Source: Lachnospiraceae bacterium (GTDB taxonomy: Bacteria > Bacillota > Clostridia > Lachnospirales > Lachnospiraceae). Taken from it: a stretch of DNA of 64,000 nucleotides. Numbering within the stretch: the stretch's first letter is position 1; the number at the start of each line of letters is the position of its first letter. Where the stretch lies: positions 62,001 to 126,000 of the forward strand of contig JAGAMG010000050.1 in the NCBI GenBank assembly GCA_017624835.1, read 5' to 3'. Below the pieces are notes generated by a model, which saw only the letters and a program-made list of their open reading frames with translations, was not told where the DNA came from and did not search any database. Position numbers and translations under genes: made by a program. Below, in pieces: positions 1,369 to 55,870 of the stretch.

Positions 1369-2796
1369 ATGAGTACTACTTCAAAAGCGAGTCAAAGAAT
1401 AGCTGCTTTACTCGATGACAACAGTTTCGTTGAAATCGGCGGACTTGTAACAGCAAGAGCAACTGATTTTAACATGAAACCAAACGAAACTCCTTCTGAT
1501 GGATGTATCACCGGATACGGAGTAATTGACGGTAATCTTGTGTATGTGTACAGCCAGGATTCTTCTGTTATGAACGGAACCATTGGTGAAATGCATGCAA
1601 AGAAGATTTCCAAACTTTATGACCTGGCTATGAAAACAGGCGCACCTGTTATCGGTTTAATCGATTCTGCAGGTTTAAGATTACAGGAGGCAACTGATGC
1701 ACTTGAGGCATTTGGTGAGATTTACTTAAAGCAGACTTTAGCATCCGGTGTGATTCCTCAGATTACAGCAATCTTTGGAACCTGTGGCGGTGGTCTTGGT
1801 CTCTTCCCTACCATGACTGATTTTACTTTCATGGAAGAGAAGAATGCAAAATTATTTGTAAATGCTCCTAATGCATTGGATGGCAATGAGGTTAGCAAGT
1901 GCAACACTGCAGCTGCTGCATTCCAGGCAGAGGAAGCAGGCATTGTTGATGTGGTAGCTGATGAAGCAACCATTCTTTCCCAGATTAGAGCTTTGGTAGG
2001 ATTCCTTCCTGCTAATAATGAAGAGGATGCTCTCATTGATTGTACAGATGATTTAAATCGCGTAAATCCTGAAATTGCAGGCTGTGTTGGTGATACTACT
2101 GTAGCATTATCCATCCTTGCAGATAACAATTACTTCTTTGAAGTAAAAGCAGGATATGCAAAGAATATGGTAACCGGATTCATCAGATTGGACGGCGTAA
2201 CCGTTGGTTGTGTTGCTAACCGTGCTGAGATTCTTGATGAAGAAGGTAAGGTGGCAGAGAAGCTTGATGCTGTTCTTTCCAAGAAGGGCTGTGAGAAGGC
2301 TGCTGATTTTGTAAACTTCTGTGATGCTTTCGGTATTCCCGTACTGACTCTTACCAATGTTAAGGGTTATGAAGCTACTGTATGTTCTGAAAAGGGCATT
2401 GCAAAGGCTGCTGCAAAGCTTACATATGCATTTGCAAATGCAACCGTTCCTAAGGTAAACGTTGTAATCGGTAAGGCTTATGGTACTGCATACACTGTTA
2501 TGAATTCCAAGGCTATCGGAGCAGATTTATGTTTGGCATGGCCTAATGCAGAAATCGGTACCATGGATAGCAAACTGGCTGCAAAGATTATGTACGAAGG
2601 TCAGGGTGCTGACGTTATTAATGAAAAGGCTGCTGAGTATGAGGCTCTTGCACTTAGTGTAACCAGTGCAGCTAAGAGAGGATATGTGGACCAGGTTGTA
2701 GAAGCTGCCGATACCAGAAAGTATGTTATCGGTGCATTCGAAATGTTATTCACAAAGAGAGAAGACCGTCCTGCAAAAAAACACGGAACAGTCTAG
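1369..2796 (+). CDS. Carboxyl transferase domain protein (MmdA / transcarboxylase 12S-like)
   Basis: This is an acyl-CoA carboxyltransferase of the crotonase fold, the family of methylmalonyl-CoA decarboxylase alpha, PccB and the 12S subunit of transcarboxylase. At 475 residues it is somewhat shorter than PccB (about 510). It has two ClpP/crotonase-like halves. The glycine-rich stretch around residues 135-150 (GTCGGGLGL) and the second-half stretch near 365-395 (VVIGKAYGTAYTVMNSKA, then LCLAWPNAEIG) are the expected CoA/biotin oxyanion regions. The start follows GGAGGGC at a normal distance. The next three genes are an OadG-like subunit, a biotin carrier and the Na+-pump beta subunit, so it probably acts on carboxybiotin carried by the gene product at 3634. 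The acyl-CoA substrate cannot be read from sequence. Confidence 0.88.
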   Translation: MSTTSKASQRIAALLDDNSFVEIGGLVTARATDFNMKPNETPSDGCITGYGVIDGNLVYVYSQDSSVMNGTIGEMHAKKISKLYDLAMKTGAPVIGLIDSAGLRLQEATDALEAFGEIYLKQTLASGVIPQITAIFGTCGGGLGLFPTMTDFTFMEEKNAKLFVNAPNALDGNEVSKCNTAAAAFQAEEAGIVDVVADEATILSQIRALVGFLPANNEEDALIDCTDDLNRVNPEIAGCVGDTTVALSILADNNYFFEVKAGYAKNMVTGFIRLDGVTVGCVANRAEILDEEGKVAEKLDAVLSKKGCEKAADFVNFCDAFGIPVLTLTNVKGYEATVCSEKGIAKAAAKLTYAFANATVPKVNVVIGKAYGTAYTVMNSKAIGADLCLAWPNAEIGTMDSKLAAKIMYEGQGADVINEKAAEYEALALSVTSAAKRGYVDQVVEAADTRKYVIGAFEMLFTKREDRPAKKHGTV

Positions 2797-2812
2797 AAAG
2801 GGTGATTATAAG

Positions 2813-3604
2813 ATGAAGAAATTTTTAAGCTTATTATGCATGATTACCTGTGTCTTTGGATTAACAGCTTGTGGAAGCAGTGAGGCGTATACCGAATATG
2901 AGCTGAGTAAGATGGAAGCTGCAAAAAACTACGCAATCCAATATGTGATTCCAACCATGGAAAGCTTTAAGGATGCGGAAAGTGTAGCCGTGCTGAAGGA
3001 ATGTACCGCAGAAGAGGTAGAATACTTGGTAGCTAAAAATAAGGGCTTTAGTGTGGATGGTTATGCGTTTATGACAGCTATCGAATCCTTTAACTCTGCT
3101 TATGAAACCGTTGGTAATCTGAAAAGTATTGGTGAGGCTACGGCTGAAATCGATGGAAAGCAGATTATTGTACGTGTGGCTGTAGAGTGTGAACAGGAAA
3201 CAGCGGAGGCAGAGCTTGTATTTACAAACGATATGTTTACGACTTTAGAGTCTGCTGCATTGAATCCTAAAGCAACCATGGCTGATTTGATGGCTAAAGC
3301 CGGAATGAATACCTTAATCGGTATGGGTACAGTGTTTGCTGTATTGCTTTTAATTAGCTTTATCATTTCATGCTTTACCATTATTTCAAAGATTCAGGCA
3401 AAATCTTCCCAGAAAGAAAAGAAGGAAGAGGTAAAAGAAACCGCGATTGAGAATGTAGTAGCACAGATTGCTACTCAGGAAGAGAGCGTGGAACTTGTTG
3501 ATGATTATGAGCTGGTAGCAGTTATTGCGGCAGCGATTGCGGCAAGCCAGGGAGCAACTTCTACGGATGGATTTGTTGTTCGTTCAATCCGCAGAAAGCG
3601 TTAA
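2813..3604 (+). CDS. OadG-family lipoprotein (decarboxylase gamma-like subunit)
   Basis: A 263-residue protein with a lipoprotein signal peptide (lipobox LTAC, Cys20), an extracytoplasmic domain of about 145 residues, one membrane span (about 168-191), a charged K/E segment and a C-terminal tail LVAVIAAAIAASQG...RRKR. The span plus charged tail matches OadG, the small gamma subunit that anchors Na+ decarboxylases and helps assembly. Classical OadG is about 80-120 residues, so the exported lipidated N-terminal domain is an addition. The ATG at 2813 is chosen because AAAGGGTGATTA precedes it and the signal peptide starts there; upstream in-frame codons overlap the previous gene. Confidence 0.8.
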   Translation: MKKFLSLLCMITCVFGLTACGSSEAYTEYELSKMEAAKNYAIQYVIPTMESFKDAESVAVLKECTAEEVEYLVAKNKGFSVDGYAFMTAIESFNSAYETVGNLKSIGEATAEIDGKQIIVRVAVECEQETAEAELVFTNDMFTTLESAALNPKATMADLMAKAGMNTLIGMGTVFAVLLLISFIISCFTIISKIQAKSSQKEKKEEVKETAIENVVAQIATQEESVELVDDYELVAVIAAAIAASQGATSTDGFVVRSIRRKR

Positions 3605-6998: not shown

Positions 6999-7046
6999 GT
7001 TGGGAAAGAGCATTTATGTTCTTTCCCAACTATTTTTATTTTTTCT
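6999..7046 (+). terminator. Terminator after oadA
   Basis: GTTGGGAAAGA (6999-7009) pairs perfectly with TCTTTCCCAAC (7020-7030), with a loop of about ten bases, followed by a T-rich tail. Confidence 0.88.
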
Positions 7047-7049
7047 ATT

Positions 7050-7124: not shown

Positions 7125-7365
7125 TGGAGGGGATAGCGGTGCTAGGGGTATATTTTTGTGCGGAGCTTCGAATGGGAATTTTCTAATTGGGTGGATGTAA
7201 AAGGTTGGCAGTTTCCGGGTCGGCTTCAGGGGCGCGTCCTGCGCCTTGAAGCCTAAAATGCACATCCGTGTGCATTTTACCCTAGGTTGTGTGTCACCCA
7301 ATAAGAAAATGTCACCATTCTTCGCAATGCACAAAAATATACCCCTAGCACCGCCATCCCCAGCC
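7125..7365 (+). repeat. About 240-bp inverted-repeat (MITE-like) element
   Basis: Two arms of nearly 70 bases pair with each other: about 7127-7193 and 7295-7364. The core of the match, GGTGCTAGGGGTATATTTTT and its complement, is uninterrupted, and the inner ends GGGTG/CACCC also match. The centre has two more hairpins: GGCTTCA...TGAAGCC (7222-7253) with a GGCGCG-rich interior, and the perfect AAAATGCACA/TGTGCATTTT (about 7255-7278). There is no transposase gene. A 117-codon minus-strand frame crosses it, which I read as a by-product of the palindrome. Confidence 0.75.
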
Positions 7366-16978: not shown

Positions 16979-17357
16979 TAATTGTAGGAGTAATTTAGTA
17001 TACCAATTTAATATGAAAAAAATAAATTTGCTTGGTTTAATTTAAAGCAGTATTCCCAACAAAAATGAGAATTGTACAAAAAGGTTGGTATAGATATAAA
17101 AAGAAATCCCAACTAAATAGAGAAAGATTTAATAGAATTGGTATAATAATAAAATACAATTCCAACTAATTAGAATATTTTACAATAAAATTGGTATAGG
17201 AAGCAAAAGTTATCCCAACGAGATAGAAAAAATTATAATTCAGTTGGTATAGGAAGCAAAAGTTGTCCCAACGAGGTAGAAAAAATCGTAATTCAGTTGG
17301 TATAGGATACGAAATTCATCCCAATGAATTAGAAAAATCAGCAATAAAGTTGGTATA
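16979..17357 (+). repeat. 53-bp tandem repeat array (about 7 units, strictly periodic)
   Basis: TTGGTATA (or TTGGTTTA in the first) recurs at 17032, 17085, 17138, 17191, 17244, 17297 and 17350: every spacing is exactly 53 bases. Each unit also carries (T)CCCAAC about 22 bases later, so TTGG and CCAA arms face each other, and most then have TAGAAA or similar. A half unit lacking TTGG (CCAA at 17003) is in phase before the first. Units at 17191 and 17244 are nearly identical; the outer ones have drifted. No ORF spans it convincingly. Confidence 0.95.
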
Positions 17358-17375: not shown

Positions 17376-17404
17376 TTGACAAGCTTTCTTGCACAAAGTA
17401 AAAT
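17376..17404 (+). promoter_or_regulatory. Promoter of the TetR gene
   Basis: TTGACA (17376-17381) and TAAAAT (17399-17404) are 17 bases apart, a consensus -35 with a good -10. It gives a leader of about 130 bases before the ATG at 17545. Confidence 0.75.
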
Positions 17405-17416
17405 AACAAGTGTTAT
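17403..17416. promoter_or_regulatory. Candidate TetR operator over the start site
   Basis: ATAACA (17403-17408) and TGTTAT (17411-17416) form an inverted repeat with a two-base centre, overlapping the -10 and the expected start of transcription. This is the normal position for an autoregulatory TetR operator. Confidence 0.5.
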
Positions 17417-17431
17417 ATGCACAGGGACTTG

Positions 17432-17516
17432 AGTTGCAAAAAGATGTAAGTTGCAAAAAGATGTAAGTTGCAAAAAGACGTAAGGTGCAAAAGGATTTAT
17501 ATTGCATAAGGAATTG
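17432..17516 (+). repeat. 17-bp tandem repeats in the TetR leader
   Basis: AGTTGCAAAAAGATGTA recurs at 17432, 17449 and 17466 (the third with one change), a more diverged copy starts at 17483 and a fifth, partial, at 17500. The period is exactly 17 bases. The block lies wholly between promoter and start codon of the TetR gene. Confidence 0.92.
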
Positions 17517-17544: not shown

Positions 17545-18096
17545 ATGGCACGCAAGGAGATTATTACAGTTCAAAATATATTGGATACGGCATTTACCAT
17601 GACGAGAGAGGAAGGCTTCGCCAATGTAACTGCCAGAAAAGTTGCTGCAAAGGCTGGTTGTTCTACCCAGCCTATTTTTCGCGTATATAAAAATATGGAC
17701 GAGCTGCTGGATGCGGTGTATGCCCAGGCGGAAACCTTTTTTCAAGATTATTACAGCTTGTATCCCAGAACCGGTAAGACTCCTTTTTCCAATTTGGGAA
17801 TGGCGTATATTAAATTTGCACGGGAAGAAAGATATTTGTTTGAGCTTTTATTTATTGCAGATAATCCCCGTAAGAAAAGCATGTATGAGCTTTTAAACGG
17901 TAAGGTGGGAAATGTGGTGTATGAAATTAATCTTGCCAGAGTACAGGGCTGTCCTGACCCGGGAGATTTATTTATGAAAATGTGGATTTTTATTCATGGT
18001 GCAGCCTGCATGGCTATGACAGGTGACTATGATTTGTCGGACCGGGAAACTTTGGATTTGCTGGAGCGTTCTTATAATGCTTTTGTGGGTATGTAA
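17545..18096 (+). CDS. TetR/AcrR-family transcriptional regulator
   Basis: A 183-residue repressor. The N-terminal helix-turn-helix is seen at about residues 20-50 (NVTARKVAAKAGCSTQPIFRVYKNMDELL), followed by an all-helical ligand-binding domain with no recognisable ligand signature. The ATG at 17545 follows GAGAGGG; a longer frame from 17485 would start inside the 17-bp repeat block. No transporter or enzyme follows directly; the next gene is an RpiR regulator, so the target may be itself or the upstream accessory run. Confidence 0.9.
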   Translation: MARKEIITVQNILDTAFTMTREEGFANVTARKVAAKAGCSTQPIFRVYKNMDELLDAVYAQAETFFQDYYSLYPRTGKTPFSNLGMAYIKFAREERYLFELLFIADNPRKKSMYELLNGKVGNVVYEINLARVQGCPDPGDLFMKMWIFIHGAACMAMTGDYDLSDRETLDLLERSYNAFVGM

Positions 18097-47019: not shown

Positions 47020-47025
47020 AGAATT

Positions 47026-47215
47026 AACCTGAGATGTGCGATAACTCTTGCTAATTTTGAACCTACATTTTCTTTAAACGGGATTCCTATATTGCCAAGT
47101 GGCTGTCAAGCCCTCACTCATTCATGAGGATTGGAAGGGAAGGCAAAAGGTTGGTTGCGGTTACCCACCTAGCATTGCTAGGAGTCAAAAAGTAAGAGGC
47201 GGCATTTTGGGGATA
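47026..47215 (+). ncRNA. ssrS: 6S RNA
   Basis: A noncoding RNA of about 190 bases that binds the sigma-A RNA polymerase. The closing stem CCTGAGATGT (47029-47038) pairs with GGCATTTTGGG (about 47201-47211), as in the 6S consensus. An apical hairpin has CCTCA/TGAGG (about 47115-47132). The 3' side of the central bubble holds a small hairpin CCTAGC/GCTAGG (47167-47182). It has its own promoter and a terminator after it and no ORF. Ends are estimated. Confidence 0.82.
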
Positions 47216-47226
47216 TACAAAAGAAA

Positions 47227-55543: not shown

Positions 55544-55870
55544 CAGTGAATAAAGGCAATGATGGTACACAGTAGAATATTATTTCCTTTCAGAGAGAGG
55601 AGGTCACCGGCTGCAAGCCTCCTTAAGTTCAGATAATATTTGAATTTCCTACCGGAGCTGCTTGGAGGAAACAATTGGTGCAGACAGGGTATAAGTGCTC
55701 GGAGAACTGCACGAAATTAGAAAGTAATCCAAGCCGGGTGGCGCACGTTAAGCGTAAATGAGAGCCCAATTTTTGAGAGAGACTTTTCTAAAACAAAAAT
55801 GGGAAATAGGGTGGTACCGCGGAAATATTCGTCCCTTGTTACATGAAAGTGTAGCAAGGGATTTTCTTAT
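55544..55870 (+). promoter_or_regulatory. T-box riboswitch (tRNA-Phe responsive) of pheST
   Basis: The T-box sequence GGGTGGTACCGCGG (55809-55822) is followed by a terminator CCCTTG.../...GCAAGGG (about 55833-55860) with a T-rich tail; the T-box can pair with it to form the antiterminator. Stem I is upstream (about 55595-55700). The likely specifier is TTC (55646-55648) in TGAATTTCCT, matching Phe. It lies directly before pheS, so uncharged tRNA-Phe should allow read-through. Confidence 0.9.

Follow-up and report, generated by a model that had tools for sequence, protein, structure and literature searches.

Background

The centromere-like sopC region of plasmid F is made of tandem repeats, each holding an inverted repeat, with a period of about 43 bp, and the attC sites of integrons share the consensus RYYYAAC / GTTRRRY. 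Regularly spaced inverted units, alternating in orientation within gene gaps, are described for the bacterial interspersed mosaic elements (BIMEs), which also bind proteins such as gyrase and IHF, in PMC2817692; tandem-repeat DNA-binding proteins named pTERF, whose binding sites differ between homologues, are described from metagenome-assembled genomes (MAGs) of ruminant-gut Clostridia in PMC11417379. In this work, we describe an array of inverted repeats with a period of 53 bp, found in a stretch of 64,000 nucleotides from a Lachnospiraceae bacterium (assembly GCA_017624835.1, contig JAGAMG010000050.1, positions 62,001 to 126,000 of the forward strand), hereafter called the window. The array is a member of a real, strongly non-random and clade-restricted family, characterized by near-invariant geometry and drifting letters, whose members are probably a genome-wide set of docking strips for a predicted sequence-specific DNA-binding protein.

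No description of such arrays appears among the titles and abstract openings of the literature searched, most subscription journals lying outside the search. The arrays resemble sopC in being tandem repeats that each hold an inverted repeat, but differ from sopC and from parS-type centromeres in occurring at nine or more loci, with no ParA/ParB family among 49 scanned neighbour proteins. Some of them read ACCCAAC ... GTTGGGT, much as attC sites do; however, they carry no genes between units, have a 53-bp period and occupy many loci, and the window array, reading TCCCAAC ... GTTGGTA, misfits the attC consensus. From CRISPR they differ in having no full-length conserved repeat and in that the parts between boxes are alike within most arrays (not in those of the MAG SIG299); Cas genes were sought only among the scanned array neighbours.

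Results and discussion

The array of the window

The core of the array (17003..17353, no strand assigned) consists of seven CCAA-N25-TTGG dyads joined by 20-bp linkers. The dyads, likewise without strand, lie at 17003..17035 (left end of the array), 17056..17088, 17109..17141, 17162..17194, 17215..17247, 17268..17300 and 17321..17353 (right end); the CCAA boxes start at the first coordinate of each dyad, and the TTGG boxes at 17032, 17085, 17138, 17191, 17244, 17297 and 17350. The 14 boxes, seven of each kind, fall into one exact 53-bp phase, while 5,000 dinucleotide shuffles gave a mean of 1.16 and a maximum of 3 boxes in the same phase, which confirms the seven boxes at exact 53-base steps, from 17032 to 17350, reported by an initial annotation of the window. 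The TTGG boxes read TTGGTATA in six of seven cases, the first being TTGGTTTA. The CCCAAC motif reported to follow each box holds in part: the first six TTGG are each followed, at a distance of 24 bp, by CCAA (17056 to 17321), but the full CCCAAC is exact in only four of the six. The left end had been placed at 16979, where no box-like sequence is present; the array opens instead with the inverted box ATACCAA at 17000-17006, and its natural register starts with CCAA and ends with TTGG.

Self-identity of the array is 0.66 at a lag of 53 and 0.25-0.39 at every other lag in the range 45-61, and Tandem Repeats Finder, run on the window, likewise returns a 53-bp period. Across six consecutive units, 18 of the 53 columns are identical, neighbouring units being more alike than distant ones.

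A family of arrays in the source genome

The genome from which the window derives, here G000, is 84.8% complete; C-numbers denote its contigs, and L-numbers the loci fetched for comparison. A BLAST search of 61 genomes with the window array identified a second array piece in G000, on contig C49, and the C49 array, used as query, led to further arrays on C33 and C11. The first search also returned five matches to the palindrome of the TetR promoter, discussed below, and six short matches (G011, G048, G010, G025 and, twice, G059); the first three of the six, those in G011, G048 and G010, were inspected and contain no five-box chain. The strict pattern TTGG-N20-CCAA-N25-TTGG occurs 80 times in G000, 39 on the forward and 41 on the reverse strand, while the backwards control is never found.

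Nine arrays were identified, on contigs C1, C11, C23, C33, C37, C39, C45 (the window), C47 and C49. A looser search for TNGG/CCNA boxes with a tolerance of ±1 covered 749 kb of G000, corresponding to the window and the other array contigs, about a quarter of the genome: the 24/29 spacing yielded 34 chains (overlaps included) with at least six boxes, all within the nine arrays, against 0, 0, 0, 1, 0 and 0 chains at six other spacings. Eight of the nine arrays entered the pair, spacer-identity and A-tract counts reported below, the C1 array (L153) having no chain of five exact boxes.

Distribution in other genomes

The initial annotation had proposed a search for the box pair at 53-bp steps in other genomes, and the geometry does recur: arrays are known in 12 species, plus a doubtful one. 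A three-box match is present in 37 of 138 genomes of the same genus, the source genome included, and none but the latter exceeds four matches. A five-box pattern, searched in 84,980 species genomes, selected 30 stretches in ten MAGs (29 in Lachnospiraceae records, one in a Clostridiales record), with about 0.5 matches expected by chance if equal base frequencies are assumed; three-box counts in these MAGs range from 3 to 114, versus 0 to 2 for the control. The doubtful case is RUG14246 (L139 5-167, three-box count 3), where a 53-bp repeat fits the box pattern, overlaps an open frame and shows no A-tract by eye; it is probably a different repeat. At the family level, a four-box pattern was found in two of 299 genomes (298 genera), G000 and G458, the match coordinates of the latter being equal to those of SIG299. 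A two-unit profile, run over 397 family genomes, recovered the same two and added G234 and G370; as it scored ten candidates per genome under strict filters, arrays may have been missed.

The array distribution across relatives looks patchy. GroEL identity to G000 is 82-89% in the nine undoubted named array genomes and 67% in RUG14246, while it reaches 92-98% in six array-free genomes of the same genus, and G030, which is 84% complete and shares 98% GroEL identity with G000, lacks any three-box match. Since strict patterns miss diverged arrays, absence here means absence of the pattern only. An empty-site comparison at the C11 array showed that gene order is not kept there.

Viral contigs were considered as carriers of the arrays and rejected: the four-box pattern gave 13 matches, against 26 for a control in which the 53-bp period was retained and the inner spacing shifted, and these matches are therefore attributed to chance. 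Two further array patterns gave no match each on viral contigs, and BLAST found none in plasmids, with array L149 as query, or in phages, with the window array.

Patchiness is also what would be observed if the arrays were mobile palindromes of the REP/BIME kind, devoid of any cell function of their own and disseminated by a Y1 (RAYT) transposase. The likeness to BIMEs extends to the regularly spaced units in alternating orientation, at many loci that seem to lie mostly in gene gaps, and GTAG, found at the foot of many REPs, is also part of TAGTAGG, the half-site of G234. We nevertheless regard such an origin as improbable. A search for Y1_Tnp (PF01797), which covered 11 array genomes (G234 and G370 lay outside it), found no match in seven of them (G000, G162, G163, G165, G167, G168 and G170, the last a doubtful array genome) and matches in G164, G166, G169 and G171, while seven of 15 array-free genomes of the genus also have one. 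No core palindrome is common to the arrays, which share only short half-sites and keep geometry instead of sequence; of the 403 half-sites in TTGG-type arrays, only 20 have GTAG near the box, and neither a shared palindrome with a GTAG foot nor a consistent RAYT partner was found. Moreover, spacer length is fixed in the arrays, while the segments between REPs vary in length, according to PMC2817692.

Spacing and sequence divergence

Around the arrays, a step of 24 bp from TTGG to CCAA was counted 198 times, and one of 23 or 25 bp 16 times; from CCAA to TTGG, 205 steps measure 29 bp and 35 measure 28 or 30 bp. Any other distance occurs at most nine times. Because the loci were found through their exact spacing, the next boxes were checked beyond the chain ends, where an offset of 0 cannot occur: of 82 such ends, 28 have their next box at ±1, and 4 have it at any other offset within ±8.

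Spacers, in contrast to spacing, diverge. Adjacent spacer cores are 66% identical in G000, where 35% is expected by composition and 41% is found between arrays, and 79% identical in RGIG4203 (36% and 43%, respectively); in SIG299 the figure drops to 41% (29 pairs), versus 28% by composition and 31% between different arrays. These comparisons exclude L131 and L139. Spacing has thus outlived sequence, most clearly in SIG299. The boxes themselves may also change: allowing ±1 on the 24/29 spacing, G234 contains a run of 17 CCGA/TAGG boxes, the first of which is CCTA, and another run of seven CCTA/TAGG boxes, and G370 contains runs of six to ten boxes, either CCGA/TCGG or mixed with CCAA/TTGG.

Neutral tandem duplication that merely kept its period would explain why neighbouring units are more alike than distant ones, as is the case in G000. 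It is very hard to reconcile, however, with the same spacing in separate arrays and species, with adjacent spacers near random identity in SIG299, and with the ±1 position of the next boxes beyond chain ends, and we consider it highly improbable. The view of the initial annotation, that boxes and spacing are under selection and are not a product of recent slippage, is supported by other arrays and species, where the spacing survives between diverged spacers.

Half-sites and the central A-tract

Folded over all boxes, the half-site has the consensus WTTHGTTGGKW, about 11 bp long. A unit is formed by two inverted half-sites facing each other across a 25-bp spacer, and units are joined by the 20-bp linkers, resulting in alternating orientation and a period corresponding to about five helical turns. 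With the half-site set as the first T of TTGG plus 5 bp on either side (11 bp), half-site centres are 26 and 27 bp apart and, given this definition, follow each other at even steps of about 2.5 turns.

The letter H of the consensus, two bases before TTGG (pair 5/27), is complementary in the facing half-sites of 132 of 187 units. The letters involved vary with the species: complementary pairs are found in 23 of 24 units of SIG299, all A/T, in 48 of 60 units of RGIG4203 (36 G/C and 12 T/A) and in 16 of 18 units of RGIG1692, T/A. Smaller samples gave 4/4 in RGIG3161, 3/4 in RGIG3012, 2/2 in SUG387, 5/9 in RGIG8677, 2/4 in E04 and 0/3 in RUG14246. At the level of array consensus letters, where L131 and L139 were included, this pair is complementary in 35 of 42 arrays, against a mean of 14.3 and a maximum of 24 in shuffles, and pairs -2, -1 and 4 also exceed the shuffles. 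An alignment of 42 of 45 two-unit stretches (A2; L131, L139 and L148 dropped), from which models and pair counts were derived, has a covariation score above both shuffled and slid versions for the CCAA-TTGG as well as for the TTGG-CCAA dyad.

The centre of the 25-bp spacer, a place fixed by no search pattern, is most often occupied by an A-tract, with A frequencies of 0.87, 0.87 and 0.73 in 40 arrays (L131 and L139 excluded), the arrays having first been turned for A > T in this spacer, which inflates A over T but not the central place. The tract is weak in SIG299, where 9 of 24 spacer centres are without it. Of 186 units, 151 lack such a tract at the centre of the 20-bp linker, but it is present there in the majority of units from RGIG8677 and RGIG1692.

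Proposed binding of a protein to DNA, or possible hairpins in RNA

To account for this geometry, we suggest that a sequence-specific DNA-binding protein would bind each pair of inverted half-sites, bend or wrap the DNA at the A-tract and pack side by side with the protein on the next pair. Such packing would impose the fixed spacing, and joint evolution of the protein and its sites would leave different letters in different species.

A different possibility is that the purine-rich strand is transcribed, in gene gaps or untranslated regions (UTRs), and that CCAAC/GUUGG stems expose A-rich loops to an RNA-binding protein or an RNase. Complementarity and covariation of the stems are compatible with it, as are the purine excess and the folding of the sense strand given below, and an A-tract that would lie at the centre of the hairpin loop and is one-stranded within most arrays; agreement between half-site letters is, however, expected from both protein co-evolution and base pairing, and does not by itself decide. 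Arrays C33 and C47 precede a likely terminator, and C39, L149 and L146 adjoin a ribosome-binding site, which places them inside likely transcripts. Compensatory changes are present, but G-U intermediates are not favoured: with eight pair positions taken together, 33 single changes within arrays lead to G-T and 43 to A-C, even though at pair 7/25 alone G-T prevails, 7 to 1. Predicted folds of the sense strand contain only 1 to 4 local CCAA-TTGG hairpins per array, and 15 of 19 arrays have their more extreme fold z-score on the antisense strand (-1.9 versus -1.5 on the sense strand in the window; the sense strand of C23 scores +1.7). Loop and linker lengths are near-fixed, rarely off by more than 1, A and T centres are mixed in the divergent arrays L143, L126 and L124, and no Rfam match was found on the arrays, searched at the gathering threshold in the window and at E up to 1 for six loci. 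Of the two forms foreseen by the initial annotation, a protein-bound or an RNA-hairpin array, the former thus fits best and the latter is less well supported; we rank protein binding at the DNA level as the likelier, and hairpins in RNA as rather unlikely.

Several observations weigh against protein binding at the DNA level. Among the 39 array segments whose direction is defined, 35 have a sense-strand purine fraction above one half; in the spacers this fraction is 0.72-0.83, versus 0.57-0.59 in other gene gaps, in G000, RGIG4203, RGIG5355, RGIG1692 and RGIG3012, and 0.62-0.68, versus 0.56-0.57, in SIG299, RGIG8677 and E04. Sense strands fold with a z-score of -2.5 or lower, relative to shuffles, in 15 of 19 arrays, the window (-1.5) not being among them, and in 13 of 19 the sense strand has the lower raw fold energy. 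Besides the turning of arrays mentioned above, the A-tract is mostly one-stranded within an array, which a symmetric dimer does not predict. In G000 and RGIG5355, facing letters at pair 5/27 are complementary in no more than 25 of 47 and 4 of 12 units, respectively, and consensus letters at pairs -3, 6, 7 and 8 do no better than shuffles. In loci found by pattern, conservation of the boxes is true by construction. Finally, no DNA-binding family occurs twice among 40 neighbour proteins scanned with Pfam in other genomes, those of G000 outside the window having been read by eye only. As for strand composition, a purine-rich sense strand may have been retained to avoid the termination of transcripts that hairpins with a U run behind them would cause.

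Extending the proposal of a DNA-bound protein, we can tentatively imagine a chromosome-wide address system, present in scattered Lachnospiraceae, in which a lineage-specific protein would polymerise along evenly stepped, alternately inverted 11-bp sites, geometry being invariant and letters re-written by species; the protein could be of the pTERF type, with tandem repeats and re-settable specificity. pTERF proteins come from the same kind of organisms and are a lead only, as possible readers of the arrays; the site given in PMC11417379, ACTNNNAGTC, is in none of five array stretches checked. No pTERF-type protein was recognised by eye in a scan for internally repeated proteins over 749 kb of G000. 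If the arrays are indeed docking strips, these bacteria would carry a protein-DNA array with conserved geometry and a code drifting between species, in which one could study how the specificity of a binding protein changes in concert with some hundred sites on the chromosome. A nucleoid or gene-boundary element would also be added to a large bacterial family, and its reader protein could be found directly, as it should track both the arrays and the species-specific letter.

Genomic context

In the window, the array lies between a gene of the TraX family (PF05857; 16210..16977, + strand), its first box being 26 bp past the stop codon, and the promoter of a gene for a TetR-family regulator (17545..18096, + strand; the open reading frame list has a GTG start at 17485); apart from these, a 94-aa frame is present on the other strand. 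The promoter-like site, TTGACA-17-TAAAAT (11/12; 17376..17404, + strand), falls outside the array, and is followed by a palindrome, ATAACAAGTGTTAT, with arms ATAACA and TGTTAT around AG (17403..17416, no strand assigned), likely the operator of the TetR gene.

Binding of this TetR protein to the array had been proposed in the initial annotation, and the array does adjoin the gene, a point of position only. That the array is the operator array of the regulator is nevertheless extremely improbable: the palindrome is found at the TetR promoter of five TetR-RpiR relatives that have no match to the array pattern, so that it is the palindrome, and not the array, that accompanies the gene, and the eight other arrays of G000 lie on other contigs. 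The five relatives were chosen because BLAST matched their TetR-promoter segment. Array-free strains with all neighbouring genes unchanged had been named in advance as evidence against selection on the array; in this respect the relatives are half informative, since they keep TetR-RpiR, while the TraX and GNAT genes were not found in their 4-kb stretches. The promoter-operator segment around AAGTAAAATAACAAGTGTTATA (window 17393-17417), upstream of TetR-RpiR in the five relatives, is a likely site of autoregulation.

The eight other arrays of G000 lie outside open frames of at least 90 aa, as defined by a simple gene caller. In other genomes, a frame of 80 aa or more runs over the array at 14 of 30 loci, in 11 cases opposite to the A-rich strand. 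The C49 array is located upstream of the groES promoter region, as judged by comparison with six relatives. A terminator scan of nine gaps found one terminator before, one inside and one after an array, and none in the remaining six gaps; a weaker hairpin after the C47 array, missed by the scan, was seen by eye.

The 40 neighbour proteins scanned in other genomes range over enzymes, transporters and regulators of diverse kinds, and, together with the scanned neighbours in the window, have no shared theme; response-regulator-like genes near the G000 arrays on C37, C39 and C47 were read by eye, outside the Pfam scans. Given this diversity, a single regulon is unlikely and, with less confidence than for protein binding itself, a better guess is that the strips may act, in gene gaps and UTRs, as structural, insulating or roadblock elements.

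In RGIG4203, arrays L144 and L146 are near genes with domains of the aminoglycoside nucleotidyltransferase type (PF04439, PF13427). A DUF1848-like protein (PF08902) directly follows another RGIG4203 array (L125 297-1238), and a similar one, recognised by eye, is within 2 kb of the G000 array on C11 (L154 5083-6054); both may be due to chance.

Other repeats and features

Short tandem repeats, different from the arrays, were observed close to some of them. Between the promoter and the coding region of the TetR gene, a 17-bp unit with no relation to the 53-bp array, AGTTGCAAAAAGATGTA, is repeated 3.8 times (window positions 17432-17496). The array before groES is flanked by 10-bp tandem repeats (L009 4808-4951), replaced by other sequence in six relatives, and a short tandem repeat of the GCCGAAGAAGTCTTAA type separates promoter and gene after the C23 array (L155, about 2720-2860, minus strand).

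Contig C39 of G000 carries frames with many heptad-like repeats (EMRQKND, EQKLENT), at L291, from base 1, and at L283, which probably encode coiled coils. Elsewhere in the window, a hairpin with TTGGG...CCCAA arms (6999-7048) scores in the two-unit model, but has a 26-bp spacing and looks like an ordinary stem-loop. Rfam matches in the window correspond to a T-box leader (55550-55839), a TwoAYGGAY RNA (7163-7327) and a 6S RNA (47023-47217).
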